Source of the DNA: an uncultured Chlorobiota bacterium
GTDB taxonomy: Bacteria; Bacteroidota; Ignavibacteria; UBA10030; UBA6906
NCBI GenBank assembly: GCA_900696645.1
Contig: CAADGV010000044.1
Location: 1-50,201, forward strand
Length of the DNA stretch: 50,201 nucleotides
Direction of reading: 5' to 3'
The position numbers and the translations under genes were made by a program. This document shows positions 15,980 to 32,468 of this stretch, in pieces. The notes below the pieces were generated by a model. The model saw only the letters and a program-made list of their open reading frames with translations, did no database searches and had not been told where the DNA came from. Positions within the stretch are counted from its first letter, which is position 1; every line of letters begins with the position of its first letter.

Positions 15980-16486
15980 CTAATTGTCAATGATAGTACG
16001 TACTACCGATTTCTGTACAACAAACTGCTGCACACCTTCAATTGCAACGGGAAGAATAACAAATGGAAGAACAAGTCCGAGCAACGCCCCCGTGATCGTT
16101 CGCGTGAGAAATGTCGAATCGTGAATCCCTGCAAACTCCGCCACAACATCCAACAGCATCGGCAGCAACACTGCAAACAGTATTGACCGGGTGTGAGTTG
16201 AGTTGCGGAACAGGGGAGTGATGCGCCGATGGAGAAACGGAAACAGAAGAGTTCCGGCCAGAAATGCAAAATAGATTGATGCACAGCGGGAACACACTCC
16301 CAACTTCTCACCAAAAAGGAAAAACGATCTTTCAGGCAACTGGTGGCAGATGGGTCGAAAAATCTGATAGACGGACGCGCTCAACGGCGATGCTACTGCT
16401 GCCAAATACGGCACTGCCACAATTGCCGTGCACCAGGCAAGCGCGCCGGCAAGAATCACGAGGTATGTTGTTCGCGGGAGATTCAT
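15980..16486 (-). CDS. DUF2085 family membrane protein
   Basis: 168 residues with about four membrane helices. The family hallmark is visible: C47-H48-Q49 after the second hydrophobic stretch, then R53 and C65-SR-C68 (GVCSRCASIY). The conserved Cys/His set suggests metal or redox chemistry near the membrane surface, but the function of DUF2085 is not known. It is first in the leftward run 16486-13427 and has a weak promoter candidate upstream at 16529-16557. It is divergent from the TPR paralogues. Confidence 0.8.
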   Translation of the reverse strand: MNLPRTTYLVILAGALAWCTAIVAVPYLAAVASPLSASVYQIFRPICHQLPERSFFLFGEKLGVCSRCASIYFAFLAGTLLFPFLHRRITPLFRNSTHTRSILFAVLLPMLLDVVAEFAGIHDSTFLTRTITGALLGLVLPFVILPVAIEGVQQFVVQKSVVRTIIDN

Positions 16487-16528
16487 GAGGGATTGAAGGA
16501 ACGATGCTGATGTGCTGCAACAGGAGGA

Positions 16529-16557
16529 AACTTAGGCGAAAAACGGGGGAGAATCAA
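16529..16557 (-). promoter_or_regulatory. Weak promoter candidate for the leftward run
   Basis: On the minus strand, TTGATT (16557-16552), a 17-base spacer and TAAGTT (16534-16529), about 40 bases before the DUF2085 start. The -10 box is poor, so this could be chance. Confidence 0.3.
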
Positions 16558-16637
16558 GTGCAACTCTTTCCGGGCAGAATTCCGATTGCATTAATATTTG
16601 GCGGGCCGGATGTTCATGTGCTGCATTCTTCGCCTGA

Positions 16638-16666
16638 TTGCACATTCCGAACGTAATCCGTATTAT
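16638..16666 (+). promoter_or_regulatory. Promoter for the TPR operon
   Basis: TTGCAC (16638-16643), a 17-base spacer and TATTAT (16661-16666). Transcription would start near 16673, 37 bases before the ATG at 16710. Confidence 0.6.
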
Positions 16667-16709
16667 GGGTTCAGGATCATCCTGATCGAACATCCCTCGA
16701 CTACAATTC

Positions 16710-18605
16710 ATGCCTGTACTTAAGAATTTCTTCGCGGAACTCAAAGCACGCAGCGTACGCAAGACACTCGCGATTTACATGAGTTCTGCCTTGACCTCGA
16801 TTGGTATTCTGCGATTGTTTACCGATGCGTACAGCTTGCCGAAGACGTTGTTCCCTATTGTCGTTACGTTGCTCACGTGCGGACTTGCGAGTGCGTTTCT
16901 TTTCGGATGGTATCACGGCAAGGCAGGAAGGCAGGCGTTTCAGCGGAAGGAAATTGTGCTTCATTCCCTGGTTGTTCTGCTCGCCGTGGTGATTTCGTTT
17001 CGTGTCGGAACCTCGTTGCCGTCCCCGCTGCCGGAGAGAATGGGAAAGTCGATTGCCGTTCTTCCCTTTACCAACACGAGCGGAAACAAGGAGGATGAAT
17101 ATTTCAGTGACGGAATTACGGAAGATATTCTCATACAGCTTGCCAAGATCAACGACCTGAGAGTGATAGCGCACGCAACGGCAGTGAAATACAAGAACAC
17201 ACAGAAAACACCGCGAGAGATCGGGAAGGAACTCGGGGTTGCGGCAATCCTGACCGGCGGAGTCCGTCGCGATGAAAACCGCATCCGGATCAGCGGGCAG
17301 TTGATCAATACGGCATCGGAAGAATACATCTGGGCGGAGACGTACGACCGCGAGTTCAAAAACATCTTCTCCATTCAAAGCGATGTGGCGCGGCACATCG
17401 CGGAAGGATTGCGTGCCCGCATAACCACGGACGAGGAGAAGCGGGTCAATGCCGCTCCCACAACCAACCTTGAAGCATACGCATTGTACCTCCGGGGACG
17501 CGACCACGCGGCCAAGGAAACAGCGGAAGATAACGCTATTGCCATCGATCTATTACAAAAGGCGATAGCGCTCGATCCCCACTACGCGCTCGCTTACGCG
17601 CAGCTCGGCTTGTCGTACCGGCAACAGTATCTCGGGCACGGATTCCCAAGCAACTGGGCGGACTCTGCCGTGGCGGTCAGCCGCAAAGCAACCGAACTCG
17701 ATCCGGCAAGCGCGGATGCGTATCATGCGCTGGGAAGGGGGTACGAAGCGCTTGGAAAACTCAGCTTGGCGCTGCAGAGTTACAACAAGGCGATCGAATT
17801 GAGCCCGAACCATTCCGCGGCAATCTCCGGCGTCGGCTGGGTCGCATTTAACAAGGGGAATCTGGATGAGGCGCTGGCATGGATGCGCAAGAGTGTTGAG
17901 CTTGCGCCGGATGCCGCAGCGAGGTACACGAATGTCGGATTGATGTACAATCTTCTCGGCGAGGATTCGCTTGCATTGCGGTGGTTCAACAGATCACTCG
18001 AGTTGCAACCCCTCCTGACAACCTACACGCATCTCACATACTTTCACCTGTTCGCCAAAAGGATTGCCGAGGCGCGGAAGGTTGTGCACATCGCCCATGA
18101 AAAATTCCCGAACGACATTTGGACTCTCAGCGCATATGGCGACGTCGAATTGATGGCGGGGAATTTTTCACGTGCACGGGAGTACTATGAGAAAGGCGTG
18201 CGGCTTTCTTCCCCTGTGGACGGGCCGGGAAACCAACTCGCATTCACCTTGCTGAAGCTGGGAGAGACAAAGAAAGCAACCGTCATCCTCGATTCAAATC
18301 TTGCGGCATACAAGCAGTTGAGCAATGAAAATGCCGAAGACTATTACAACCCGTTTGTCGTTGCAACGATTCTCGCGATACAGAACAAGCCCGATGAAGC
18401 CCTTTCGTGGCTCCGGATTGCCATTGAGTTGGGCTATACCGAGTATCGATGGCTGAATGTCGACCCCACAATAGACAACCTGCGAACGCATCCTGGTTTC
18501 CGGGAGATCTCGGACAAGCTTCAGGGGCGGCTGAAGGTTATGGCCTCCCGGGCAGAAGAACGCGGATTGTTCCGCGAATCCACCGTACACTCAGGTCAAC
18601 CGTGA
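16710..18605 (+). CDS. Membrane-anchored TolB-like/TPR protein, copy 1
   Basis: 631 residues. The first 105 hold a cytoplasmic start (FFAELKARSVRKT) and about three membrane segments, the arrangement found at the front of TPR proteins annotated as adenylate-cyclase-like. No cyclase domain exists here. Residues about 112-235 are a TolB/FlgO-like domain (SIAVLPFTN, DEYFSDGITEDIL, AETYDREFKNIF). Residues 240-610 are TPR repeats (for example ADAYHALGRGYEALGKLSLALQSYNKAIEL). This architecture suggests a membrane scaffold or sensor; no enzymatic residues are seen. The next gene is a tandem paralogue whose GTG overlaps this stop codon. Regulated by the TTGCAC/TATTAT promoter just upstream. Confidence 0.85.
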   Translation: MPVLKNFFAELKARSVRKTLAIYMSSALTSIGILRLFTDAYSLPKTLFPIVVTLLTCGLASAFLFGWYHGKAGRQAFQRKEIVLHSLVVLLAVVISFRVGTSLPSPLPERMGKSIAVLPFTNTSGNKEDEYFSDGITEDILIQLAKINDLRVIAHATAVKYKNTQKTPREIGKELGVAAILTGGVRRDENRIRISGQLINTASEEYIWAETYDREFKNIFSIQSDVARHIAEGLRARITTDEEKRVNAAPTTNLEAYALYLRGRDHAAKETAEDNAIAIDLLQKAIALDPHYALAYAQLGLSYRQQYLGHGFPSNWADSAVAVSRKATELDPASADAYHALGRGYEALGKLSLALQSYNKAIELSPNHSAAISGVGWVAFNKGNLDEALAWMRKSVELAPDAAARYTNVGLMYNLLGEDSLALRWFNRSLELQPLLTTYTHLTYFHLFAKRIAEARKVVHIAHEKFPNDIWTLSAYGDVELMAGNFSRAREYYEKGVRLSSPVDGPGNQLAFTLLKLGETKKATVILDSNLAAYKQLSNENAEDYYNPFVVATILAIQNKPDEALSWLRIAIELGYTEYRWLNVDPTIDNLRTHPGFREISDKLQGRLKVMASRAEERGLFRESTVHSGQP

Positions 18606-20476
18606 GAACAATTCCAAAATTTTTTGCCGAGCTCAAAGCGCGTAGCGTGCGCAAGACACTCGCGATTTACATGAGTTCCGCCCTGACAACCATCGGTATC
18701 CTCCGACTGTTTACCGATGCGTACAGCTTGCCGAAAACGTTGTTCCCTATTGTCGTTACGTTGTTGACGTTCGGCGTAGCGAGTGCATTTCTGTTCGCAT
18801 GGTATCATGGCAAAGAAGGGCGCCAGCCTTTTCGCCGGAAGGAAATATTTCTGCATCTCATCATTCTGTGCGTTGCGGTTGCCGTCTCGTTCCGTGTCGG
18901 GACTTCTCCAAGAAACCAGAAAGCGTCCGAGCCGGTCGGCAAAACTATTGCTGTTCTTCCCTTCACCAATCTAAGTGATAGTAAAGAGGATGAGTATTTC
19001 AGCGACGGTATCACGGAGGACATTCTCACACAACTCTCCAAAATCAGCGACTTGAATGTCATTTCGCGAACATCTGTCATGAAGTACAAGAATACACATA
19101 AATCCATTCGCGAGATTGCCGGTGAACTCGGGGCAACAGCCATTCTGGAAGGCAGCGTACGGCGTTCAGGTAATCGTGTCCGCATCACGGGCCAGCTCAT
19201 TCAAGCCTCGGAGGACAAGCACATTTGGGCGGAGATGTATGATCGCGAGATCAAGGATATCTTTGCTATTCAGAGCGAAGTGGCGCACAGCATTGCCCGC
19301 GAGCTCAAAGCACGGCTTTCGCCCGAAGAACAGAAGCTTTTGCAGGCCGAGCCGACGAAGAATCTCGAGGCATACGGCCTCTTTCTGAAGGCGAGGGATT
19401 TTCAGAATAAGCGCACACTTGAAGGAAACAGGCGTGCAGTGGAGCTTTTGCACAACGTGATCGCGCTTGATTCGGGTTACGCTGCCGCGTATGCGCTTTT
19501 AGGCATGGCGCATATCTCCCGCTATCTTGCGTTCGGTTTCTCCAGTGCTTCGGTCGATACGGGGGTCAGATACGCGCAAAAAGCGATTGCGCTGGATCCG
19601 GAAATCCCCGACGGCTTTCATACACTCGGAAAGGGGTATGAGGCAATCGGCAAGTTGTCGCTGGCTCTGCCGCAGTACAATCGCGCCATTGCGTTGAGTC
19701 CTAACTACGCGCCTGCGTTTGCGAGTGTCGGTTTCATTGAATTCGGGTTCGGCCGTATCGACCAGGCGGTTGCATGGATGCGCAAAGGTGTGACTCTGAC
19801 GCCCGATGTTGCTTCGAGGTATGTTAATGTCGGAAGCATGTATGATTTTCTCGGCGAGGATTCTCTGTCGCTTCAGTGGTATCGCCGTGCGTTGGCATTG
19901 GATGAGCATTTGATAGTGGCGCATTGGTCGTTGATCTATCATTTTCTTAATCTGGGAGATATGAAGCAGGCCCGATGGCACGCAGCAAAGGCGTTTGAAG
20001 CCTCGCCCGAAGACGTTTCCGTTCTACACGCTGCCGGTGATATCGAGCTGGTGCATGGAAATTACAAGCTTGCGCACGATTACTACAGGAAGTCGGTAGC
20101 GGGCTCATCGTATCATGACGGACCGGGAAACCAACTCGCATTCACACTGCTGAAGCAGGGAAGGATTCAGGAAGCGCACGCTATTCTCGATACGAATCTT
20201 GTATACTTCACACAACAAAGCTCGCTCTCTCCGGAAGATGCATACAATCCTGTCGCTGTTGCTACCATCCATGCCATCAGGTCACAACCGAAGGATGCAG
20301 TCGCGTGGCTTCGCACGGCTGTGGAACGAGGCTGGCGTGACTATCGGTGGGCGAAGATCGAGCCCATGTACGAATCGCTACGCTCCGACTCCGGATTTCA
20401 GGATCTCATGAACGACTTGCGTGCGCGCATCGAAGCAATGCGCCTCCGGGCAAAAGAACGGGGATTGCTCGACTGA
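18602..20476 (+). CDS. Membrane-anchored TolB-like/TPR protein, copy 2
   Basis: 624 residues with the same layout as copy 1: membrane segments (about 15-100), TolB-like domain (about 110-230), TPR repeats (240-600). The frame is open back to 18449, but alignment with copy 1 puts the start at the GTG at 18602, whose last two bases begin the TGA of copy 1 (GTGA overlap). Translation must be coupled. DNA identity between copies is very high across the N-terminal membrane region (for example the shared CTCGCGATTTACATGAGTT) and falls in the repeats, as expected after duplication with divergence of the binding surface. Its own stop overlaps the ATG of the LysE-type gene. Confidence 0.85.
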   Translation: MRTIPKFFAELKARSVRKTLAIYMSSALTTIGILRLFTDAYSLPKTLFPIVVTLLTFGVASAFLFAWYHGKEGRQPFRRKEIFLHLIILCVAVAVSFRVGTSPRNQKASEPVGKTIAVLPFTNLSDSKEDEYFSDGITEDILTQLSKISDLNVISRTSVMKYKNTHKSIREIAGELGATAILEGSVRRSGNRVRITGQLIQASEDKHIWAEMYDREIKDIFAIQSEVAHSIARELKARLSPEEQKLLQAEPTKNLEAYGLFLKARDFQNKRTLEGNRRAVELLHNVIALDSGYAAAYALLGMAHISRYLAFGFSSASVDTGVRYAQKAIALDPEIPDGFHTLGKGYEAIGKLSLALPQYNRAIALSPNYAPAFASVGFIEFGFGRIDQAVAWMRKGVTLTPDVASRYVNVGSMYDFLGEDSLSLQWYRRALALDEHLIVAHWSLIYHFLNLGDMKQARWHAAKAFEASPEDVSVLHAAGDIELVHGNYKLAHDYYRKSVAGSSYHDGPGNQLAFTLLKQGRIQEAHAILDTNLVYFTQQSSLSPEDAYNPVAVATIHAIRSQPKDAVAWLRTAVERGWRDYRWAKIEPMYESLRSDSGFQDLMNDLRARIEAMRLRAKERGLLD

Positions 20477-21189
20477 TGGCAACCGCTCTTCTTCTTGGCA
20501 TATTGCTCGGCTTTGCACTCTCGATCCCGCCCGGCCCCCTTTCGCTTGCTTTCATGAAGAAGGCGGTCAGCAAGGAGTATGCAGCGGCGTTCATGGTGGC
20601 ATTTGGTGCGGCAGTGATGGATATTTTCTACAATCTCATCGCTGCCTCCGCCTCATCTGCACTGGTTGTCTGGTTGAGCGATCTCTTTGTAGAGAACAAA
20701 TGGCTTTCCCTCGTCTTTCAGGCCCTCTGCTTTTTTATCCTACTGGTACTGGGAATTCGCTACCTGCGTGACAAGCACGACCTGAAGGCCGAGCGGAATA
20801 TCGTTGAACGTGAGCGCGCCACGGAAGAACGCGTGCGCAAGATCGGGCACGGCTCGCCGTTCTTTCTCGGAACCCTGATAGCGTTCACGAATCTCGCCAC
20901 GCCGACATTCCTGCCCTCGATGATCGCCGCTATCAGTTACCTCCATGCGGAGGGATTCCTTGAGCGTTCCGTTGCTGCGAACCTTATGTATTCCGTCGGT
21001 TTCGGCATTGGAACGACAATATGGTTCAGTACGGTTCTCCGGTTTATTGTGAAGCATCACGCAAAACTCTCCTCATCATTTATCACCGCGATCTACAAAC
21101 TTGCCGGCGGAGCGCTGATTCTCTTTGCACTTGCCCTCGCTTACAATATGATTGTGAGTACCGAGTGGGCGGTCATATTTAGCAACTGA
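20476..21189 (+). CDS. LysE-family membrane exporter
   Basis: 237 residues with six predicted membrane helices. The LysE/RhtB signature is clear at the start: LLGFALSIPPGPLSLAFMKKAV, with the conserved PPGP in the first helix, and helical hairpins ending with a charged loop (RDKHDLKAERN). The family exports amino acids and small solutes; the substrate cannot be read from the sequence. The ATG overlaps the TPR copy 2 stop codon by one base (TGATG), so it belongs to that operon. The TPR proteins may influence its production or use. Confidence 0.85.
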   Translation: MATALLLGILLGFALSIPPGPLSLAFMKKAVSKEYAAAFMVAFGAAVMDIFYNLIAASASSALVVWLSDLFVENKWLSLVFQALCFFILLVLGIRYLRDKHDLKAERNIVERERATEERVRKIGHGSPFFLGTLIAFTNLATPTFLPSMIAAISYLHAEGFLERSVAANLMYSVGFGIGTTIWFSTVLRFIVKHHAKLSSSFITAIYKLAGGALILFALALAYNMIVSTEWAVIFSN

Positions 21190-21219
21190 GTCAAACATTC
21201 ACTATCAACGGAGGCTCTT

Positions 21220-21717
21220 ATGACATTGCAGGAACTCAAAACCCTTCACGCCTACAACGCGTGGGCAAGCAATCAGATTTTTGAAAGCCTTACAGCAATG
21301 CCCGGCGAACAGTATATGCAGGATATGAAGGCGAGTCACGGCAGCATTCACAACACGCTCGTGCACATGGTCGGAGCCGAGAAAGTCTGGCTTGAAAGAT
21401 TCAAAGGCGCGGCGCGGCCGTTCCTTTCTGAAAACCCGCCTGCGTCGTTGGCAGAATTGAAGACTATTTGGGAGAAGACCGGCTTCGACACGGCAAAGTG
21501 GCTCGATACGCAATCGGACAAATCGCTGCAAGGGACATTTACCATGAAGACTGCGAAGGGAGACATCTACACGCATGTTTTCTGGCAAGCGTTCCAGCAC
21601 GTTGTCAATCATTCCACTTATCATCGGGGACAGGTCATTACCATGATGCGGCAGCACGGAGTGAAACCGCCCACCACCGATCTGATTCGATTCTATCGGG
21701 AAGCGAAGTCCAGATAG
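21220..21717 (+). CDS. DinB-like four-helix metalloprotein
   Basis: 165 residues. Metal-ligand histidines typical of the DinB/YfiT fold are present: H49 in NTLVHMVGAEKVWLERF, and H131 and H135 in VVNHSTYHRGQV. The fold binds a divalent metal. Some relatives are thiol (mycothiol or bacillithiol) S-transferases, while many are only DNA-damage-linked by name. A ribosome binding site GGAGG lies before the ATG. It follows the LysE-type gene by 30 bases and is probably in the same operon. Cytoplasmic; substrate unknown. Confidence 0.88.
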   Translation: MTLQELKTLHAYNAWASNQIFESLTAMPGEQYMQDMKASHGSIHNTLVHMVGAEKVWLERFKGAARPFLSENPPASLAELKTIWEKTGFDTAKWLDTQSDKSLQGTFTMKTAKGDIYTHVFWQAFQHVVNHSTYHRGQVITMMRQHGVKPPTTDLIRFYREAKSR

Positions 21718-21735
21718 GCCAGTCGTTCTGCACTT

Positions 21736-22263
21736 ATGAAATATCTTTTCTTCGCTTTCAAGCTGCTGATTATTGCCTACGCGGCGTACCTTGTTTGGGT
21801 CCTCGCATTCGAGTACTATCCCGCAGACCCGCTGGGATTCCGGCCCCCGTTTGTGCTATGGGTGATCGACACGATCAATCTCTTCATTCATGAAGCGGGA
21901 CATCTCTTCTTTCGGTTGTTCGGGCAAACACTCTACATTTTGGGTGGCTCGATCACGCAATGCCTCATCCCGCTGGCGCTTGCAATCGTCACATGGCGCG
22001 AGAAGCCGCAACAGGCCGGCTACCCGTTGTTCTGGTTCGGTGAGAATCTTGTCAATGTGAGTGTGTACATTGCCGATGCGCCGCACAGAAATCTGAAACT
22101 CATCAAAGAGGGATTGATTCACGATTGGCACTGGCTTCTCTCGGACAATCTCGAATTGGCAGAACCAATGGGGTTTGTAGTCCGCGGGCTGGGATTGATA
22201 GTGTGTGCGGGTTCGTTGCTGTTGTTGATTGTTGCCGCTGTTCGGGCATTTCGTAGAACCTGA
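21736..22263 (+). CDS. Membrane protein with HEAGH zinc-protease-like motif
   Basis: 175 residues with four likely membrane segments (5-25, 40-60, 68-88, 150-170). The second contains H52-E53-A-G-H56, an HExxH zinc-binding motif inside a hydrophobic helix, as in site-2 proteases. The second conserved element of that family (N/L-D-G) is absent, and the protein is half the usual length. It may be an M50-like peptidase with another third ligand, or a non-catalytic relative. The gene starts 18 bases after the DinB-like gene, and a true M50 protease gene follows. No secure family assignment. Confidence 0.65.
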   Translation: MKYLFFAFKLLIIAYAAYLVWVLAFEYYPADPLGFRPPFVLWVIDTINLFIHEAGHLFFRLFGQTLYILGGSITQCLIPLALAIVTWREKPQQAGYPLFWFGENLVNVSVYIADAPHRNLKLIKEGLIHDWHWLLSDNLELAEPMGFVVRGLGLIVCAGSLLLLIVAAVRAFRRT

Positions 22264-22276
22264 CATTCGGGATCCG

Positions 22277-22305
22277 TTGATATTCGCCAAGTATCCCGTT
22301 ACATT
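22277..22305 (+). promoter_or_regulatory. Promoter candidate for the site-2 protease/ATPase pair
   Basis: TTGATA (22277-22282), a 17-base spacer and TACATT (22300-22305). Transcription would start near 22312, about 45 bases before the ATG at 22358, right at a small GGGC-ATAAC-GCCC hairpin. Confidence 0.5.
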
Positions 22306-22357
22306 ACCCGTGGGCATAACGCCCGTTTCTCCTTCATCCTGATAAAGGGTACCAACC

Positions 22358-23476
22358 ATGTTCTCCCAATCAATTCGTTTTGGAAAAATCCTCGGCATAC
22401 CGGTCGGGGTTAATTATTCCTGGTTCATCATTTTCATTCTCATCACGCTTTCGCTTACGACACAGTTCAGGCATTTGCATCCTGATTGGACGTATGCAGA
22501 GCATCTTACCGTCGGCATTGCGACGAGTCTTCTCTTCTTTCTTTCGGTGTTGCTGCATGAGTTGGGCCACAGCGTGATGGCATTGAAATATCAGATTCCC
22601 GTCAAGTCCATTACCTTGTTCGTGTTTGGCGGTGTTGCACAAATCGGGAAAGAACCGCAAAAGCCGCTGCACGAGTTCATGATAGCCATTGCCGGCCCCG
22701 TTGTGAGTTTTGCACTCGGCATCTTCTTCTTCGCGCTGATGTGGACGACGCGAGGCGCAATGGAAGGCGTCAGTGCACTGGGTGAATGGCTTGGAAGCAT
22801 CAATATCATTCTGGCCTTATTTAATCTCATTCCGGGATTCCCTCTTGACGGCGGGCGCGTGCTGCGTGCCATTGTTTGGAAAGTGACCAACAGCTATGAG
22901 CGGGCGACAACCATCGCGGCCGGGTCAGGACAATTCTTCGCGTACGCGTTCATCGTTTTTGGCGTGTGGCAGGCGCTCACCGGCAATTTTTTTGGCGGAT
23001 TGTGGATTGGATTCATCGGATGGTTTCTGCTGAGTGCCGCACAGTCGAGCACCGCGCAGTTACACTTCCGATCAGCACTCAAGGGCGTCTCGGCAGGCGA
23101 TGTCATGCTGCAGGATTGTACGCGGCTTGCCGGCAATACAAGCGTTGCGGATCTTGTGGAACAGCATATGCTAAAAACCGGCATTCGGTGCACAATGGTG
23201 ATGGATGGCGACCGCTTCGGTGGCTTGGTGACGCTGCATGAAGTGAAACAAATACCGAAAGAAGAATGGCCGATGACATCGCTGCAAGCCATCATGGTTC
23301 CCGAAGAACGGCTCTCGGAAGTCGCACCGGAAACACCGATTGATGTTGTGCTTCAGAAAATGAATGAAGAGAACATCAGCCAGATGCCTGTGGTAAAGGA
23401 TGGCAAGCTCCTGGGAGTTATTGGCCGTGATCGCCTTCTCGCACTTGTGCAAACACATCTTGAACTGAAGGCATGA
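22358..23476 (+). CDS. Site-2 protease family (M50) intramembrane metalloprotease with CBS pair
   Basis: 372 residues. The zinc ligands are H67-E68-x2-H71 in LLHELGHSVMA and D164 in NLIPGFPLDGGRVLRA, both set in membrane helices, so the active site is complete. Residues from about 250 carry two CBS motifs (SAGDVMLQDCTRL, LQAIMVPEERLSEV), domains that bind adenine nucleotides and gate activity. This matches the group of S2P enzymes with CBS tails (Rip3-like). The enzyme would cut membrane-bound regulators such as anti-sigma factors; no such target is encoded next to it. The ATPase gene begins four bases after its stop, so a shared transcript is almost certain. Confidence 0.92.
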   Translation: MFSQSIRFGKILGIPVGVNYSWFIIFILITLSLTTQFRHLHPDWTYAEHLTVGIATSLLFFLSVLLHELGHSVMALKYQIPVKSITLFVFGGVAQIGKEPQKPLHEFMIAIAGPVVSFALGIFFFALMWTTRGAMEGVSALGEWLGSINIILALFNLIPGFPLDGGRVLRAIVWKVTNSYERATTIAAGSGQFFAYAFIVFGVWQALTGNFFGGLWIGFIGWFLLSAAQSSTAQLHFRSALKGVSAGDVMLQDCTRLAGNTSVADLVEQHMLKTGIRCTMVMDGDRFGGLVTLHEVKQIPKEEWPMTSLQAIMVPEERLSEVAPETPIDVVLQKMNEENISQMPVVKDGKLLGVIGRDRLLALVQTHLELKA

Positions 23477-23480
23477 GGTT

Positions 23481-26198
23481 ATGAAAAGGAACATCCACGC
23501 ATCCGGTTTGGCTCATGAAAACTGGCATGCAATGGAAATGGATGATGTCTACGAAGAATTGCAAACCGGCCCCGACGGGCTGGACGACGCGGCAGTATCT
23601 CATCGTACGCAGATCTACGGTCGGAACATACTTCCTACGAAGGAACCCCCCTCCGTTTGGGAGATAGTTCTTCATCAGGTACTCAATCCCCTGATTTTCA
23701 TTCTGGTGGCCGCGGCCGTTGCGTCTTTGGCAATCGGCGAAGCGACGGATGCAATTTTCATCTTTCTCGTGATTGTCCTGAATAGCGGATTGGGTACATA
23801 TCAGGAGTATAACGCAGAGAAGAGTGCAGCAGGTCTGCAAAGTCTCTTGAAAATACGGGCAAGAACGAGACGCAACAACAAGGAAGTGGAAATTCCTTCG
23901 GAAGACATCGTGCCCGGCGATATTGTTCTGCTCGAATCAGGGAACAAGGTTCCTGCCGACCTCCGCCTCGCTCAGATAAACAACTTGGCCGCCGACGAGA
24001 GTTTTCTGACCGGGGAATCCGTGCCTGCAGAAAAGCGCGTGAAGCTTCTCCCGGAGAATACCGGAGTGGGTGAACGCAGCAACATGGTATTTGCGGGATC
24101 AACAATTACTGCAGGACGGGGAGCGGGAGTCGTGGTTGCCACCGGCTCACAAACGCAGGTCGGATTGATCGCCAAGACTGTTGCCGAGGCAGAGGGTGCC
24201 AAACCACCGCTTGTGCTGCGCATGGAGAAGTTCATCAGGCACATCAGTATTCTCGTGCTGCTTGTCAGTGCCGGGCTCGCCGTTCTCCTCCTTCATCAGG
24301 GGCACGAACTCTCCGCAGTCTTTTTTTTCGTTGTCGCCCTTGCTGTATCGGCGATTCCCGAAGGCCTGCCGGTGGCGCTGACGGTCGCGCTTTCAATTGC
24401 CACGAAGCGGATGTCTGAACGTCACGTCATCGTCCGAAAACTTACGGCAGTCGAAAGTCTTGGTAGTTGTACCGTTATTGCCAGTGACAAGACGGGAACG
24501 CTGACTGTGAATCAGCAAACGGCGCGTAAGATCGTGTTGCCCGATGGAGAGTCGTTCACCCTTTCCGGTGAGGGATATAATGGAGAAGGAGAACTATCTG
24601 CCGCTAAAGGGAGTGGGATAGACGAATCGTTCCGTACACAACTCAAGATGCTGGCAGAGCTTTCCATACTTGCCAACGAAGCATCTCTCACAAATGAAGA
24701 TGGTGAATGGAAGCACCGCGGCGATGCAATAGACGTTGCATGCCTCGCAATGGGACACAAAATGGGCCTGCGTCCCGAGGAAATCAGGCACAACGTCTCC
24801 CCTGTTGGGGAAATCCCGTACGAATCGGAGAGGAAGTTCTCGGCGGCATTCTATCAACAAAACGGTACAACTCACGTCGCTGCCAAGGGAGCTGTTGAAG
24901 TGATTCTCAGATTCTGTGGCAAAATGCAGTTACGTGATGGGGTGAAACCTCTCAATCGGGAAGTCATCGAGCAACAAGCCGACATGATGTCCGGGAAAGG
25001 GTTACGCGTACTTGCTGTTGCAGGGCGTGTGTATTCAGACTCAGTTACGAAAGGCGTGTATGATGATGGCGACATCTCAAACCTTGTCTTTCACGGACTA
25101 CTCGGATTTATCGACCCACTACGCCCGGAAGCGGTGGAGTCAGTGAAAAAGTGTAAGGAAGCGGGAATCCAGGTAATGATGATTACCGGTGACCATCCTT
25201 CAACCGCGGGCGCTATCGCAAAAGAACTGAAACTGACAGATCGTGATGAACGCGTGGTAACCGGCCAACAGTTGAGCGAGACCGGTACGCCCGACAGTCC
25301 GGCATACGAGAGGTTGGTTTCATCAACGCATGTTTTCGCGAGAGCCTCACCGGTGCAGAAGCTGGAGATTGTTGATGTATTGATTCGTCGCGGGGAGTTC
25401 GTTGCTGTAACGGGGGATGGCGTGAATGATGCTCCTGCCCTGCGCAGGGCAAATATCGGTGTCGCCATGGGGTCGGGGACTGATGTAGCAAAGGAAGTGG
25501 GCTTGATGATTGTAACGGATGACAATTTCGCATCAATTGTGTCGGGTGTTGAAGAGGGCAGGTTCGCGTATGACAATGTGCGAAAAGTGATCTACTTGCT
25601 GATTTCCACCGGAACGGCGGAAGTGTTCATGTTCATCGCCTCGATTTTTGCCGGACTGCCGATCCCCCTGCTTGCTGTTCAGCTTCTGTGGTTGAATCTT
25701 GTAACCAACGGCATTCAGGATGTTGCTTTGGCATTTGAGGGAGGAGAACCGGGAGCAATGAAGCGTAAGCCTCGCAAGACGAGCGAGGGTATTTTTAATG
25801 AGCAGATGGTCAGTCAAACGCTTGTTTCCGGGCTGGCAATCGGCAGTCTCGCGTTTGCTGCATGGTACTGGCTGGTTGAAATCCGGACAATGGATGAAGC
25901 ATCTGCGCGTAACATCATTCTCCTTCTCATGGTGCTGATGCAGAACGTACATGTGTTCAACTGCCGGTCCGAAACCGTGTCTGCGTTCAAAGTGCCCCTG
26001 CGCCGCAACTACGTACTCATCGGCGGCGTTATGCTCGCCCAACTGATACACATACTGAGCATGCAACTGCCGTTTATGCAGGGAATTCTCCGCACCGAGC
26101 CGGTACATCCTTCACACTGGTTGCTGGCATGCGTAATTGCCTTGGTTTTGCTCGCGGTTATGGAGGTGTTCAAGCTAATGCGACATCGGAAGGCGTAA
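23481..26198 (+). CDS. P-type cation-transporting ATPase (P2 group)
   Basis: 905 residues with the standard order: N-terminal cation-ATPase domain, actuator motif T177-G-E-S180, PEGLP in membrane helix 4, phosphorylated aspartate D336 in SDKTGTLT, and hinge motif GDGVNDAPAL, then four to six C-terminal membrane helices. PEGLP points to the calcium/sodium-type P2 group. Helix 6 reads NLVTNGIQDVALA where calcium pumps usually have NxxTD, so the ion may not be calcium; the TN-G-QD form also occurs in many uncharacterised bacterial pumps. It is coupled to the S2P gene four bases upstream. Energy from ATP would drive cation export at the inner membrane. Confidence 0.9.
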   Translation: MKRNIHASGLAHENWHAMEMDDVYEELQTGPDGLDDAAVSHRTQIYGRNILPTKEPPSVWEIVLHQVLNPLIFILVAAAVASLAIGEATDAIFIFLVIVLNSGLGTYQEYNAEKSAAGLQSLLKIRARTRRNNKEVEIPSEDIVPGDIVLLESGNKVPADLRLAQINNLAADESFLTGESVPAEKRVKLLPENTGVGERSNMVFAGSTITAGRGAGVVVATGSQTQVGLIAKTVAEAEGAKPPLVLRMEKFIRHISILVLLVSAGLAVLLLHQGHELSAVFFFVVALAVSAIPEGLPVALTVALSIATKRMSERHVIVRKLTAVESLGSCTVIASDKTGTLTVNQQTARKIVLPDGESFTLSGEGYNGEGELSAAKGSGIDESFRTQLKMLAELSILANEASLTNEDGEWKHRGDAIDVACLAMGHKMGLRPEEIRHNVSPVGEIPYESERKFSAAFYQQNGTTHVAAKGAVEVILRFCGKMQLRDGVKPLNREVIEQQADMMSGKGLRVLAVAGRVYSDSVTKGVYDDGDISNLVFHGLLGFIDPLRPEAVESVKKCKEAGIQVMMITGDHPSTAGAIAKELKLTDRDERVVTGQQLSETGTPDSPAYERLVSSTHVFARASPVQKLEIVDVLIRRGEFVAVTGDGVNDAPALRRANIGVAMGSGTDVAKEVGLMIVTDDNFASIVSGVEEGRFAYDNVRKVIYLLISTGTAEVFMFIASIFAGLPIPLLAVQLLWLNLVTNGIQDVALAFEGGEPGAMKRKPRKTSEGIFNEQMVSQTLVSGLAIGSLAFAAWYWLVEIRTMDEASARNIILLLMVLMQNVHVFNCRSETVSAFKVPLRRNYVLIGGVMLAQLIHILSMQLPFMQGILRTEPVHPSHWLLACVIALVLLAVMEVFKLMRHRKA

Positions 26199-26406
26199 CA
26201 ATGATGTGATTCCGTCATCGGGCAGGATGCTCTGTTATCTCTCTTCTAGATTATGGATGATTCAAAGCCTTTCACTTCTTGCACCATCACCCTTTCGGAA
26301 TCAACAGGAAGAGCCAGGCAAGTTCTGGAAAGTGTAGCTGCTTTTAGCTATTTTTAGCATACGAAAACAAGCAAACGCCCATACACCCCTCTTGCAAAGG
26401 TATCCC

Positions 26407-27744
26407 ATGAACACTCGTACAAAACGCTGGCTCACATTTGGCGGAAGCATACTTGTCACCATTCTCGTCGCGGCACTGTTGATCAACATCTTTGAGCGGC
26501 AGCAAGAAGGGAGGGTGACCTATATGAAAATTGTGGAGATATCCCCCGGCGATCCCGACCCCGAAGCATGGAAAGTGAACTTCCCCCGCGAATACGAAGC
26601 GTACATGCGGACTGTCAGAACCAGCGAGATGGACGAGTACAGCAAATGGGGACGATACGGCGGCTCCGAGTCGTTTTCAAAACTCGAAAAACATCCCGAC
26701 TATCGCCGCCTTTTTGCAGGGTATCCGTTCTCTGTAGAGTAGCGGGAAGAACGCGGCCACATGAACGCGTTGAAAGACATGCTTGCAAGCCCGCGCCTCG
26801 GCGATGAGAAACCGGGAACCTGCATGACATGTAAAAGTTCCCAAGTGCCCGCTTTTGTCGAGCAGTACGGCGCCGAATTGTTCTACAAAACTCCCGTGAA
26901 AGAGTTGGTGGAGAAGCACGGATTCAAGCACTCGGTGGTCTGCGCCGATTGTCATGATTCCAAAACGATGGAATTGAAAATCACGCGCATCGCTTTCAAA
27001 GAAGCAATGCAACGACGCGGCATCGACATTTCCAAAGCATCCCGCCAGGAGATGCGAAGCTACGTGTGCGGACAATGCCACGTTGAGTACTATTTCAAAG
27101 GGCCCGGCAAGTATCTTACATTCCCGTGGGATCAGGGAATGGTGCTGGACAGTATCGATGCATACTATGAGAAGGAGGGATTCTCCGACTGGACGCACGC
27201 CGAATCGAAGGCGCCGATGATCAAAATGCAGCATCCCGAATTCGAAATCTGGTCAACAGGAATTCACGCCCGATCCAATGTCAGTTGCGCAGATTGCCAC
27301 ATGCCGTACCGAAGGGAAGGGGCTATCAAAATTACAGATCATTGGATTCGAAGTCCGCTCGGGAATCTGACGAACGCATGCCTTACATGTCACCGGCAAA
27401 GCGAAACAGAAATGCGCGAGCGCGTTCTGCAAATCCAGGACCGGACATACGGCCTGATGCAACGCTCGGAGCGTGCTATCATCTCGGCAATTGACGGCAT
27501 CAAAGCGGCGATGCAGGTTGGAGCAACAGACGAGGAACTGAAGGCCGCACGCCAGTTGCACCGGAAATCTCAGATGCGTTGGGACTTCATCAGCGCGGAG
27601 AATAGTATGGGCTTTCACAGCTCGCAGGAGGTAGCACGAATTCTTGGCGACGCTATTGACTACGCCCGCCAAGCGGAGCTTGAAGCGTACAAAGTGCTGG
27701 TGAAAAGAGGTGTTCCGGCAAAACAGGTATCATACTCCGAATAG
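26407..27744 (+). pseudogene. nrfA: nrfA, cytochrome c nitrite reductase, interrupted by in-frame TAG
   Basis: Read straight through, this frame is a complete NrfA of about 445 residues, the periplasmic pentaheme enzyme that reduces nitrite to ammonium with six electrons. A membrane/signal helix covers residues 11-30. The catalytic heme site is CMTCK (139-143), with lysine as ligand, and four CxxCH sites follow (CADCH, CGQCH, CADCH, CLTCH). The VEYYF tyrosine and the GIHARS histidine of the active site are present. Codon 112 (26740-26742) is TAG where relatives have tyrosine before the R-G-H segment (FSVE-stop-REERGH), and the frame continues unbroken after it. There is a good ribosome binding site (AAAGG) before ATG 26407. 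No other damage is seen, so it is a very recent mutation, a sequencing or assembly error, or a suppressed codon. Confidence 0.85.
26761..27744 (+). CDS. nrfA: Heme-bearing part of the split nrfA
   Basis: 327-residue open frame after the amber codon, from the first ATG. It holds all five heme sites and the catalytic residues of NrfA but lacks the signal helix. A protein made from here could not be exported and so could not receive its hemes. The ATG has only a weak GGAAG twelve bases upstream. An automatic annotation would probably list this as the nitrite reductase; I regard it as a fragment of the gene starting at 26407. Confidence 0.6.
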   Translation: MNALKDMLASPRLGDEKPGTCMTCKSSQVPAFVEQYGAELFYKTPVKELVEKHGFKHSVVCADCHDSKTMELKITRIAFKEAMQRRGIDISKASRQEMRSYVCGQCHVEYYFKGPGKYLTFPWDQGMVLDSIDAYYEKEGFSDWTHAESKAPMIKMQHPEFEIWSTGIHARSNVSCADCHMPYRREGAIKITDHWIRSPLGNLTNACLTCHRQSETEMRERVLQIQDRTYGLMQRSERAIISAIDGIKAAMQVGATDEELKAARQLHRKSQMRWDFISAENSMGFHSSQEVARILGDAIDYARQAELEAYKVLVKRGVPAKQVSYSE

Positions 27745-27777
27745 ACCCGATTTTCACGTACTGCACGGCAGAGATCT

Positions 27778-28221
27778 ATGAACATCAAGAGGTTACTGGG
27801 ATTCCTCCTTATTGTCCTTCCCGGGACTGTCATCGGGTTAAGTGTTTACACCTTCTACTATGCCAAGGGATACTCATATCTCCTCGATGATCCCAAGGCG
27901 TGCATCAACTGCCATGTTATGCGCGACAATTTCATCGCGTGGGAAGTTTCCAGCCATCGTTCGGTAAGCTGCAACGGCTGTCACGTTCCCCAGGGTCCCG
28001 TCTCGAAATATTACGTGAAAGCCGAGAACGGATTCCGGCATTCGTATGTTTTCACATTTGAGAATCCACAGATCTTTCGGTTGGCGCCAATCGGGCAACG
28101 GACTGTTGAAGCAAATTGCATTCGATGTCACGTTGCGACAGTCTCAAATATCTCACACGGTGTCAGCGATACCGGCATGCGCTGCTTCGACTGTCACCGT
28201 GGAGTTGGACACGCGTTCTAA
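27778..28221 (+). CDS. nrfH: NrfH, membrane tetraheme quinol dehydrogenase
   Basis: 147 residues of the NapC/NirT family. A single N-terminal membrane helix (5-30) anchors a periplasmic domain with four heme sites: CINCH, CNGCH, CIRCH and CFDCH. The methionine in CHVMRD is in the place of the unusual heme-1 ligand of NrfH. It takes electrons from menaquinol and passes them to NrfA, with which it forms a complex. It starts 34 bases after nrfA; the order nrfA-nrfH is the reverse of the common nrfHA arrangement. It is intact, so electron supply remains coded even if nrfA is broken. Confidence 0.92.
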   Translation: MNIKRLLGFLLIVLPGTVIGLSVYTFYYAKGYSYLLDDPKACINCHVMRDNFIAWEVSSHRSVSCNGCHVPQGPVSKYYVKAENGFRHSYVFTFENPQIFRLAPIGQRTVEANCIRCHVATVSNISHGVSDTGMRCFDCHRGVGHAF

Positions 28222-28259
28222 CTTCATTCAGAATCGGAATACGATAACGGAGATTACCA

Positions 28260-28574
28260 ATGCACATTCAGGTGAATACTGACAGACATGTCGAAGGTAC
28301 CACTGAACTCAAACATCTTGTCGAGAATACCATAAAGAATACGTTGGATCGTTTCAGCACTCGTGTTACGCGCGTCGAAGTTCACCTCGGAGACGAGAAC
28401 AGCCACAAAGCCGGGGGTGATGACAAACGATGTCTGATGGAAGCCCGCCTTGCCGGTCTCCAACCGATTGCGGTAAAACACCAGGCTCCGACGCTGGAGC
28501 AGGCAATCGACGGGGCGACAGGAAAATTGGAAAGAGCCATAGAGAGCCGTCTCGGGCGGTTGAACAAACGGTAA
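28260..28574 (+). CDS. hpf: HPF/RaiA-family ribosome hibernation factor, short form
   Basis: 104 residues. The alternating strand-helix pattern (MHIQVNTDRHVEG, a VTRVEVHLGDENS strand, then CLMEARLAGLQPIAVKHQAPTLEQAIDGA) is the single S30AE/HPF domain, which sits in the decoding centre of idle ribosomes. The C-terminal dimerisation domain of long HPF is absent. It follows nrfH by 38 bases. If cotranscribed, ribosome silencing would be tied to anaerobic or nitrite conditions. The strand with VEVHLGDEN fits the family well; confidence is moderate because the family is divergent. Confidence 0.75.
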   Translation: MHIQVNTDRHVEGTTELKHLVENTIKNTLDRFSTRVTRVEVHLGDENSHKAGGDDKRCLMEARLAGLQPIAVKHQAPTLEQAIDGATGKLERAIESRLGRLNKR

Positions 28575-28670
28575 GACGGTCTAAATGTGAGGTTATCACA
28601 GGTTGTTAGCAGAAGATCGTTCCGAAAGAACATTCCCTGAAATCTCTCGATACCTTGGCGGATCAAACGC

Positions 28671-29624
28671 ATGCGAAAGCACACGCTCGAAACACTTCTT
28701 AAAGAAGGTCTGATAACGGGCGACCAACAGTCATTCCTCTCACGCATCTACGACAAATCAGTGTTCTCTCTCTACTATGAGTTGAGAACAATGTTGTACT
28801 TCGGCGTTCTCCTCTTCACGGCCGGCATCGGCATACTCGTCTATCGCAATATCGATACAATCGGACATCAGGCCATCATAGCAGGGCTTGCAGGATTGGC
28901 TGCCATCGCGTTCCGGTATGCTGCAAAACGAAGGCCGCCCTATTCACATCGCGAGACAGAAAGTCCCGGATCGCTGTACGAGTATGTGCTGCTCGGCGCC
29001 TGCCTTCTGTTTGCCACCATCGTCGGGTACATCCAATACCAGTACGGGATCTTCGGAACACGGTGGGAATTGAGCGCACTGATACCCGCGGTTGTGTTTC
29101 TCTATATCGCATACGCATTCGACCATCGCGGTGTTCTTGCCCTCGGCATCGCGGGGTTGGCCTCCTGGCTCGGACTGACGGTTTCGCCGGCAGAATTAAT
29201 GAAACAGGGTATCTTCTCCTCAGAAGCAGTCATCTTCAACGGGCTTGTTTTCGGGATTGTAATTTGCGGAGTTGCGTTTGTTCTTGATCGCTTCGGCATC
29301 AAGAAACATTTTACGTTCACTGCGCTAACCCTTGGGTCGAACGTTCTATTTGTTGCATGTCTTGCAGGGCTGTTTACGCTTGGAATGAGTCTTCTGTTCT
29401 TCCCCCTCTTGATGCTGTGCTGCGCTGGAGGCATTATCTTTGCCCGAAGGGAACAATCGTTTCTCTTTCTTCTTCTTTCTTGTGTGTACGGATACATCGG
29501 GGTGACATATTTTTTGTCGGATGTTCTTGTTGAGGCATTCGGGATATTCTTCTACTTCATTGTTTCGTGCGGCATCATCATCTATTTCATCTTTAACTAC
29601 AAGACCTTTCTGGCGAAACGATGA
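28671..29624 (+). CDS. DUF2157-like polytopic membrane protein
   Basis: 317 residues. A cytoplasmic N-terminal helix bundle of about 40 residues (TLETLLKEGLITGDQQSFLSR), with the 'L-x-x-G-L-I-x-x-x-Q' pattern of DUF2157 proteins, precedes nine to ten membrane helices. No catalytic motif is visible. The next gene has the same plan and starts with an ATGA overlap, so the two are likely paralogous partners made together. Function unknown. Confidence 0.7.
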   Translation: MRKHTLETLLKEGLITGDQQSFLSRIYDKSVFSLYYELRTMLYFGVLLFTAGIGILVYRNIDTIGHQAIIAGLAGLAAIAFRYAAKRRPPYSHRETESPGSLYEYVLLGACLLFATIVGYIQYQYGIFGTRWELSALIPAVVFLYIAYAFDHRGVLALGIAGLASWLGLTVSPAELMKQGIFSSEAVIFNGLVFGIVICGVAFVLDRFGIKKHFTFTALTLGSNVLFVACLAGLFTLGMSLLFFPLLMLCCAGGIIFARREQSFLFLLLSCVYGYIGVTYFLSDVLVEAFGIFFYFIVSCGIIIYFIFNYKTFLAKR

Positions 29625-30796
29625 TCATCTACGACATGCGTTTGGTGGAAAAGTTGCAGGTTGCCCGCGAGGCAAAACAGTGGCGTAACAGCGGGATCAT
29701 CCCTTCAAATCAATACGATGCAATAAAGGCAGCATACACCACGCCTCTCTACTCTCCGACATTATTCATTCGAATCGTACTGTTCGTCTTTGCATGTATT
29801 GCACTTGCTGGAGTGTATGGGATTGTTTTTCTTATTGTGTCGCCTGATCATGATACGACGTTCGCCGCGCTTCTTGTTGTGGTTGGCGGACTCTCCTTTT
29901 TCGTACTTGAGAGAGTTGTGAAGACCCGGCAATTGTACAAGGCAGGAATTGAGGAGGCAATGCTGTATGTGGCATTATTTCTCACAATCGCAGGGATAGT
30001 GTGGCTTTACCTCGAAGCAACGTCGCCGCCACGCACAGGCGTAGTGCCTTGGATTCTTGCGCTCCCGCTTTTGATTTGGGGCGCTGTACGTTTTGCGGAC
30101 AGGCTTGTAACGGCGGGCGCCTATATTTGCGCGCTGGCCGTTGTGCTCGTGCCTTTGTCTGAGAGCGGCCCTGTAACGCGTTCCCTTCTGCCGTTTGTAG
30201 CGATGCTTCTCGGCTTAGGATCATATTTTCTTGTTCGAAAGTACAGCGGAAAGAAGTTTCTTGAGCCATGGAAGGATTGTCTTTTTGTTATCAAGATGCT
30301 GAGTCTTGCGGTGTTGTACTGCGGCGGAAACTACTTCGTGGTTCGGGAAGGAAACGCTGCGTTGATGGGATATGAAATTCCCGAAGGCGGGAATATCCCG
30401 TTTGCGTTTCTGTTCTACATACTTACAGCCTTGATACCGGTTGCGTATATCGTGCGTGGCCTCATGATTCGTGACCATCTGCTGTTGAGAACGGGATTGA
30501 TTGCGGCCGTCGTTTCCGTGTTGACATTTCGTTATTACTTTCATGTTGTTGCTCCCGAGGTGGCACTGACCATCGCCGGTGCGGTGATGTTCCTGGCAGC
30601 AATGTTCTCGTTACGCTTTCTCAAAACCGACAGAAACGGTTTCACGCATCGCAATATCTTGAAAGAGAAACTGAAAGATCTGAATGCAGAAGGATTGCTG
30701 ATTTCCCAGACACTCGGACCTGCACCACAGCCCGCCGCAAAACCTCCACAGGGAGGCGGAGAATTCGGCGGCGGGGGCACGACAGGCAGTTGGTAG
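29621..30796 (+). CDS. DUF2157-like membrane protein with Gly-rich GSW tail
   Basis: 391 residues. The N-terminal segment (KLQVAREAKQWRNSGIIPSNQYDAI) resembles the DUF2157 helix of the preceding gene, followed by about ten membrane helices. The C-terminus is cytoplasmic and disordered, ending in PPQGGGEFGGGGTTGSW. Similar FGGGG-x2-G-x-W tails end unrelated membrane proteins of the TPM-domain type, so the tail may be a shared recognition feature. The start overlaps the upstream stop codon (ATGA). No function assigned. Confidence 0.7.
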   Translation: MIIYDMRLVEKLQVAREAKQWRNSGIIPSNQYDAIKAAYTTPLYSPTLFIRIVLFVFACIALAGVYGIVFLIVSPDHDTTFAALLVVVGGLSFFVLERVVKTRQLYKAGIEEAMLYVALFLTIAGIVWLYLEATSPPRTGVVPWILALPLLIWGAVRFADRLVTAGAYICALAVVLVPLSESGPVTRSLLPFVAMLLGLGSYFLVRKYSGKKFLEPWKDCLFVIKMLSLAVLYCGGNYFVVREGNAALMGYEIPEGGNIPFAFLFYILTALIPVAYIVRGLMIRDHLLLRTGLIAAVVSVLTFRYYFHVVAPEVALTIAGAVMFLAAMFSLRFLKTDRNGFTHRNILKEKLKDLNAEGLLISQTLGPAPQPAAKPPQGGGEFGGGGTTGSW

Positions 30797-30834
30797 GTTT
30801 CACAAATCACTTCAAACAACATACAGGAGACACG

Positions 30835-31263
30835 ATGAAGGCAATGCTGCATTGTATTCTTCTTCTTTCACTGATTCTTGTTTCGTGCGCGTCCATCTCG
30901 GATGCAATCAAAGCAAAAGATGACGGGACAGTTGTAACATACCCTGTAGACTTCGAGCAGGGCTGGAAGATTGCATTGCGAGTCCTGCGTTGGGAAGATG
31001 CAGAAACGATTGAAGAGCACAAGGATGAGAACTACATGGTCACAACAGTCGGTGCCAATCTGATTTCTGCCGGCGCTGTCGTTGCGGTATGGGTCGAGCC
31101 GCAAGGGAACAACAGTGTCAAGGTAACGTGTGTCACAAAACGAAAGATGCAGACTAACATAGCAACAGGGTTGACGGAAACCAAATTCCACACACGATTC
31201 AAGCAAGCGGTTGACATCGTAAAGCAGGGAAAACCGCTGCCCTCCGACGCCCCGAAAAACTAA
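30835..31263 (+). CDS. Small lipoprotein
   Basis: 142 residues. The signal ends in the lipobox LVSC (C18). The mature part has strands and helices like YPVDFEQGWKIALRVLRWEDAETIEE and a predicted beta sheet with VKVTCVTKRK, recalling DUF3568-type small envelope lipoproteins, though the assignment is weak. The ATG at 30835 has AGGAG seven bases upstream; the earlier in-frame start overlaps the preceding gene and has no signal peptide. Probably in the same operon as the two membrane proteins upstream. Location: periplasmic side of a membrane. Confidence 0.7.
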   Translation: MKAMLHCILLLSLILVSCASISDAIKAKDDGTVVTYPVDFEQGWKIALRVLRWEDAETIEEHKDENYMVTTVGANLISAGAVVAVWVEPQGNNSVKVTCVTKRKMQTNIATGLTETKFHTRFKQAVDIVKQGKPLPSDAPKN

Positions 31264-31376
31264 TGCCCCTCCAACTATCTTTTTCTACAAATCGAGGGGA
31301 GCAGTGCCGCAGCAACATGGAAAAAAACTTCACAGTTATGTGGAGATATTTAGTGGAGTGGCACAAGTGAGTCCAA

Positions 31377-31409
31377 GGTTCCCCGCATCCCGGAACGGTG
31401 CGGGGAACC
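31377..31409. terminator. Perfect inverted repeat, possible terminator
   Basis: GGTTCCCCGCA (31377-31387) and TGCGGGGAACC (31399-31409) pair over 11 bases with an 11-base loop. No U-run follows on either strand. It lies 114 bases past the small-lipoprotein stop. Confidence 0.45.
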
Positions 31410-31496
31410 CACTATACCTCAGTCTGTTTCAACCCTGATGGCCAAGATCGGCCCGAATTCTTAGCAATACCACCCATTCTTTTAGATACAAGCCTG

Positions 31497-31525
31497 TTGG
31501 ATTTCCCGCCCTTCTTGTCTATTTT
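31497..31525 (+). promoter_or_regulatory. Promoter candidate for the C39-like gene
   Basis: TTGGAT (31497-31502), a 17-base spacer and TATTTT (31520-31525). The start of transcription would be near 31532, about 70 bases before the ATG at 31605. Confidence 0.45.
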
Positions 31526-31604
31526 TCTACCCCACCATTTCTCAGCAGACGTTGATAGCGATGTGTGGTAAGATTCTTTGAACTCCCGGAGTGTTTGACA
31601 ATCA

Positions 31605-32468
31605 ATGGGTTTGTATCCTCAACCGAATAAGTGGCAGTGCGGGCCGTTTGCATTGAAGCACGCGCTCATCATGCTCGGGAAGTTTGTAAACGAAAAGCGG
31701 GTTTCGGAAATCGCCGGAACCACATGGTGGTCTGGCACCGATGAAATTCAACTCGGGCGCGCAGCACGGGCGTACGACTGCAAGATGACTGTTGTGCGGG
31801 AGAATAATCCGTTGCATGCCAAGCGTGAGCTGCTTCTGACACTCAAGCGGGGCAGGCCCGCTCTGCTGTGCGTTGACAATTGGGGTCATTGGATTACTGT
31901 TGTCGGCGCTGAGAAGGGGCGCTTCATTTATCTTGACAGCAGCAAAGCTCCCGTGGTGTGCGTTGCTTCATGGAAACAACTGAAGAAACGCTGGGCGTAC
32001 AAGGAGCTTGATGAAGGTGATCCGAAGATAGTGGAAACCTTATACGATTTACATCCGGTTATGCCGAAATTCCGGGCACGGACAAAAGCGCGCTTCTCGC
32101 TGGAGCGCGCCCGCTACTTGCGCAGACCGGAGAACCATACGTTCGCCACGCATTGGGATGAATACTTCGACGACCTGACACAAATCTGCGCGCCGCGGAC
32201 GCCGCTCAGCCAGCAAGTATTTCCGATGGGAGAGCTGCTGCGCCGGCACGGCGAAATGATCAAAGATCAAGTGGCGTACTGGCACGGGGCCGTGAAGCGC
32301 GAGCAGGTTGCCAAAGTACTGAAGAATATGAAGTTTGTTGCCGACACGTATGATCTTGTCGTTAAGAAGTCGGAAGAGAAGCGCGCCATCGCCGCCATCT
32401 GCATCAACCTCTCGCTCTGGGCGGCAAGCAAATACGGCGTCGACGAGATGTACGGCAGCAACGAGTAG
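31605..32468 (+). CDS. C39-like cysteine peptidase-fold protein
   Basis: 287 residues. The N-terminal 120 match the papain-like C39 fold: Q11-C12-G-P (oxyanion glutamine and nucleophile), H95 in NWGHWITVVG and D111 in FIYLDSS. All catalytic positions are therefore intact. There is no signal peptide and no ABC transporter domain, so it is not a bacteriocin-processing exporter. The C-terminal 150 residues are helical and unassigned (ERARYLRRPENHTFATHWDEYFDD). Its target is unknown; it may trim an intracellular peptide. The ATG is the only possible start, since a stop codon lies three codons upstream. Stops of this and the next gene are adjacent (convergent). Confidence 0.72.
   Translation: MGLYPQPNKWQCGPFALKHALIMLGKFVNEKRVSEIAGTTWWSGTDEIQLGRAARAYDCKMTVVRENNPLHAKRELLLTLKRGRPALLCVDNWGHWITVVGAEKGRFIYLDSSKAPVVCVASWKQLKKRWAYKELDEGDPKIVETLYDLHPVMPKFRARTKARFSLERARYLRRPENHTFATHWDEYFDDLTQICAPRTPLSQQVFPMGELLRRHGEMIKDQVAYWHGAVKREQVAKVLKNMKFVADTYDLVVKKSEEKRAIAAICINLSLWAASKYGVDEMYGSNE

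Follow-up and report, generated by a model that had tools for sequence, protein, structure and literature searches.

The window, the whole stretch of 50,201 nucleotides that was analysed, carries a frame of 446 codons (terminator counted) for the nitrite reductase NrfA, followed by nrfH (Table 1). Base inspection of the nrfA frame shows a TAG codon about one quarter of the way into it, with the codons for FSVE on its 5' side and those for REERGH on its 3' side. All five heme motifs are encoded 3' of this codon. No second lesion is found in nrfA, whose own terminator is also TAG. Because of the in-frame TAG, the frame is not open from the signal helix to the last heme; the gene is a disrupted nrfA and not a working one.

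Table 1. Coordinates of nrfA, its in-frame TAG, the expected products, and nrfH in the window
Feature	Position	Strand	Basis
nrfA frame, pentaheme cytochrome c nitrite reductase, with one internal TAG and a TAG terminator	26407..27744	+	PF02335, structures
In-frame TAG, codon 112; relatives have Tyr (or Phe/His)	26740..26742	+	sequence, homologue comparison
Expected truncated product, 111 residues, with membrane/signal helix and no heme motif	26407..26742	+	translation
Frame for a possible restart (327 aa with all five heme motifs, lacking an export signal); probably inactive	26761..27744	+	translation; inference
nrfH, intact, quinol-oxidising partner	27778..28221	+	TIGR03153

When the TAG is read through, the translation matches the Cytochrom_C552 profile (PF02335) with an E value of 9.3e-142 over residues 51-438 (profile positions 1-391 of 438), and alignment with solved NrfA structures covers most of the protein. 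The five heme motifs are CMTCK, CADCH, CGQCH, CADCH, and CLTCH, the first of which has the form CXXCK. Also kept are the hydrophobic helix at the N-terminus and both active-site segments, EYYF and QHPE. The initial annotation had described a single TAG inside one continuous nrfA frame, with the five heme sites, the signal helix, and the active-site Tyr and His intact, and both parts of this description are borne out.

The adjoining nrfH scores 146.1 bits against TIGR03153, for which the cut-off is 134.2, and shares the reading frame of nrfA, following 11 codons past the nrfA terminator. The family match, the five heme motifs with CXXCK first, the nrfH partner, and the structure alignment are all shared with NrfA of the NrfHA type (CXXCK active-site heme), from which the gene found here differs by one stop codon. 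The gene order is nrfA-nrfH (26407-28221), and it is the same in the closest relatives. In a more distant relative (L005), nrfH precedes nrfA. Other genomes of the order, one of them from the same genus, encode a different NrfA with about 45-52% identity (L110, L088, and L101), in which the first heme motif is CXXCH and not CXXCK.

In the sister species, which belongs to the same genus, nrfA is intact, with 95% amino-acid identity and a tyrosine codon at the TAG site. This intact gene and the PF02335 match together rule out a chance open frame. Tyrosine is also found at this site in two genomes from another family of the order and in both solved NrfA chains with a printed alignment. Among the 97 homologues that are readable at the position, the residue is Y in 62, F in 22, H in 11, and T in 2; none of the 97 has a stop. 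Within the order, 33 of the 98 genomes carry nrfA, and no true internal stop was seen in the other nrfA-carrying genomes. For G002, G012, and G058, the TGA or TAA codons reported as internal to nrfA proved to be the natural gene ends. The initial annotation had stated that the position is usually tyrosine, had proposed that one tyrosine codon of an otherwise intact nrfA had turned into a stop, and had named related genomes as a check; the comparison agrees with it on the residue and supports the proposed change. A literature search for nrfA nonsense alleles found nothing relevant.

Compared with the sister species, nrfA has a dN of 0.030 and a dS of 1.32, giving a dN/dS of 0.0226. The ratio is 0.0226 on the 5' side of the TAG and 0.0224 on the 3' side. 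It is the lowest among the neighbourhood genes compared over their full length, the others ranging from 0.030 (nrfH) up to about 0.18. When amino-acid changes are polarised with two genomes of another family of the order as outgroups, seven fall on the nrfA branch of the present genome (the stop excluded) and five on the sister branch. Since the two lineages have changed about equally, the time since any loss is limited to a small part of the branch. By a simple Poisson bound, the time without selection comes to about 1.2% of the branch to the sister species; with every ambiguous change assigned to the present lineage, it rises to 3.1%. Given the strong constraint, the absence of a second lesion, and the absence of the stop in relatives, the TAG is very young, its age being no more than about 1-3% of this branch. 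As far as the substitutions indicate, nrfA has been fully selected until very recently, or is so still. An old pseudogene, which had been raised earlier as an alternative, is ruled out by the lone lesion and by the dN/dS of 0.023 on either side of the TAG.

TAG is an ordinary stop in G000, the genome to which the window belongs. It terminates 13 of the 40 likely genes of the window, which were chosen by eye among the open frames. Both release factors, RF1 (357 residues) and RF2, are present and open; the two were distinguished by their motifs. The Rfam tRNA model yields 44 tRNA genes, and ARAGORN assigned a name to each. None of the 44 has a CUA anticodon, and one is an ordinary tyrosine tRNA. 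Ile-GAU and Ala-UGC tRNAs are absent among the 44, which suggests that the rRNA operons are unassembled and that the tRNA inventory is nearly, not fully, complete. The 48 ABC-ATPase and 53 HATPase matches are free of true internal stops; the one further TAG reported, inside a histidine kinase (G000:C31:56839), is where that gene naturally ends. Suppression, one of the options left by the initial annotation, which had named a search for a CUA suppressor tRNA as a check, is unlikely given the tRNA inventory, the intact RF1, and the usage of TAG.

The assembly of G000 amounts to 4.2 Mb in 46 contigs, with a completeness of 100 and a contamination of 0.09. The PF02335 search finds a single NrfA. 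Two weaker matches are other multiheme cytochromes, so a second nrfA as a backup is rejected. Genes for a NarGHI-type nitrate reductase, clustered with transporters, were also recognised by eye. NirS and a NirK above the cut-off were not found in G000.

The region upstream of nrfA differs from that of the sister species. Between the upstream gene and nrfA there are 4.1 kb (22245-26402), against only about 150 bases in the sister species. This segment includes an M50 peptidase/CBS gene (22358-23476) and a gene for a calcium-type P-type ATPase (23481-26198). A promoter scan finds nothing promoter-like on the forward strand ahead of nrfA. Promoter loss through the 4.1-kb segment was considered and not adopted; the intergenic alignment with the sister ends about 20 bases before the ATG and is uninformative at such divergence. 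Over positions 15980-32468, dS to the sister is about 0.4-0.8 before the segment and 1.3 or more after it, a jump that perhaps reflects recombination. One upstream TPR gene (16710-18605) is likewise highly diverged. At 16710-20476 there are two tandem, paralogue-like TPR-repeat proteins with overlapping frames.

We consider it fairly probable that the TAG is a recent nonsense allele that inactivates the only NrfA of the genome. The TAG is then a genuine base, and the product of the allele would be inactive. A point against loss is that the gene seems fully functional apart from the TAG, as would also be expected with a base-call error or with read-through. The TAG may instead be a consensus or assembly error, or a minority-strain allele in a mixed sample, with the gene of the cell intact. 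This is possible, if on the unlikely side: a one-base change suffices, the nrfA of the sister species is intact, and nrfA has no other decay and the strongest constraint among the neighbours compared over their full length. However, the quality of the assembly speaks against an error or a strain mixture, as do the syntenic genes of the window, which are open, and the roughly 100 ABC and HATPase domain matches, which contain no true internal stop.

Read-through of the TAG by a near-cognate tyrosine tRNA or by other low-level misreading, yielding useful full-length NrfA with the stop as an expression brake, is improbable. It would agree with the low dN/dS on either side of the TAG and with the report of Belinky et al. 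2021 (PMC7918605) that in-frame stops are widespread in constrained bacterial genes, with many of these stops lying in genes whose dN/dS stays below 1. The stop is absent in every relative, however, and therefore the low dN/dS stems from the period before its origin. The absence of a CUA tRNA and the intact RF1 also argue against read-through. Furthermore, because nrfA ends in TAG and nrfH follows in frame, general suppression would also pass this terminator and yield NrfA-NrfH fusions. According to Belinky et al. 2021 (PMC7918605), stops of this kind are mostly short-lived, with a polymorphism-like persistence; this agrees with a young allele no less than with read-through. A maintained read-through point that throttles NrfA through near-cognate decoding, with normal RF1 and no suppressor tRNA, is more doubtful still. 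The chance that TAG is read as an amino acid through a code change, pyrrolysine, or a dedicated suppressor tRNA is very nearly nil. Its sole support is the in-frame TAG itself, and it is contradicted by the genes of the window that end in TAG, by the open RF1, and by the tRNA inventory; the other sampled families, too, are without an internal TAG.

If the TAG is a recent nonsense allele, a very recent substitution would have struck the sole nrfA of the genome. Translation would halt at codon 112, leaving a heme-less stub of 111 residues. If translation restarted at 26761, the product would have the heme motifs but, lacking an export signal, could not mature in the periplasm. Attachment of heme to cytochrome c in the periplasm requires an export signal; the restart product is probably inactive because it has none. 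With the only NrfA truncated ahead of its hemes and the restart product not exported, the organism, or the sampled strain, would most likely have lost NrfA-type nitrite ammonification. A lone in-frame stop, purifying selection, and no other decay are shared with the recent nonsense alleles and young low-dN/dS pseudogenes of bacteria treated by Belinky et al. 2021 (PMC7918605). While the main analysis in that study concerned stops present in two or more species, the nrfA TAG is found in one genome only.

The TAG is real as sequence, and the finding is otherwise ordinary biology. If NrfA has been lost, nitrate reduction in this organism probably ends at nitrite, as a NarGHI-type reductase is present and neither NirS nor an above-cut-off NirK was found. 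If the TAG is real, the intact-looking nrfAH pair would lead to annotation of the genome as that of a nitrate ammonifier, although it has no working NrfA. Surveys of ammonifiers that count genes can overlook such a stop.
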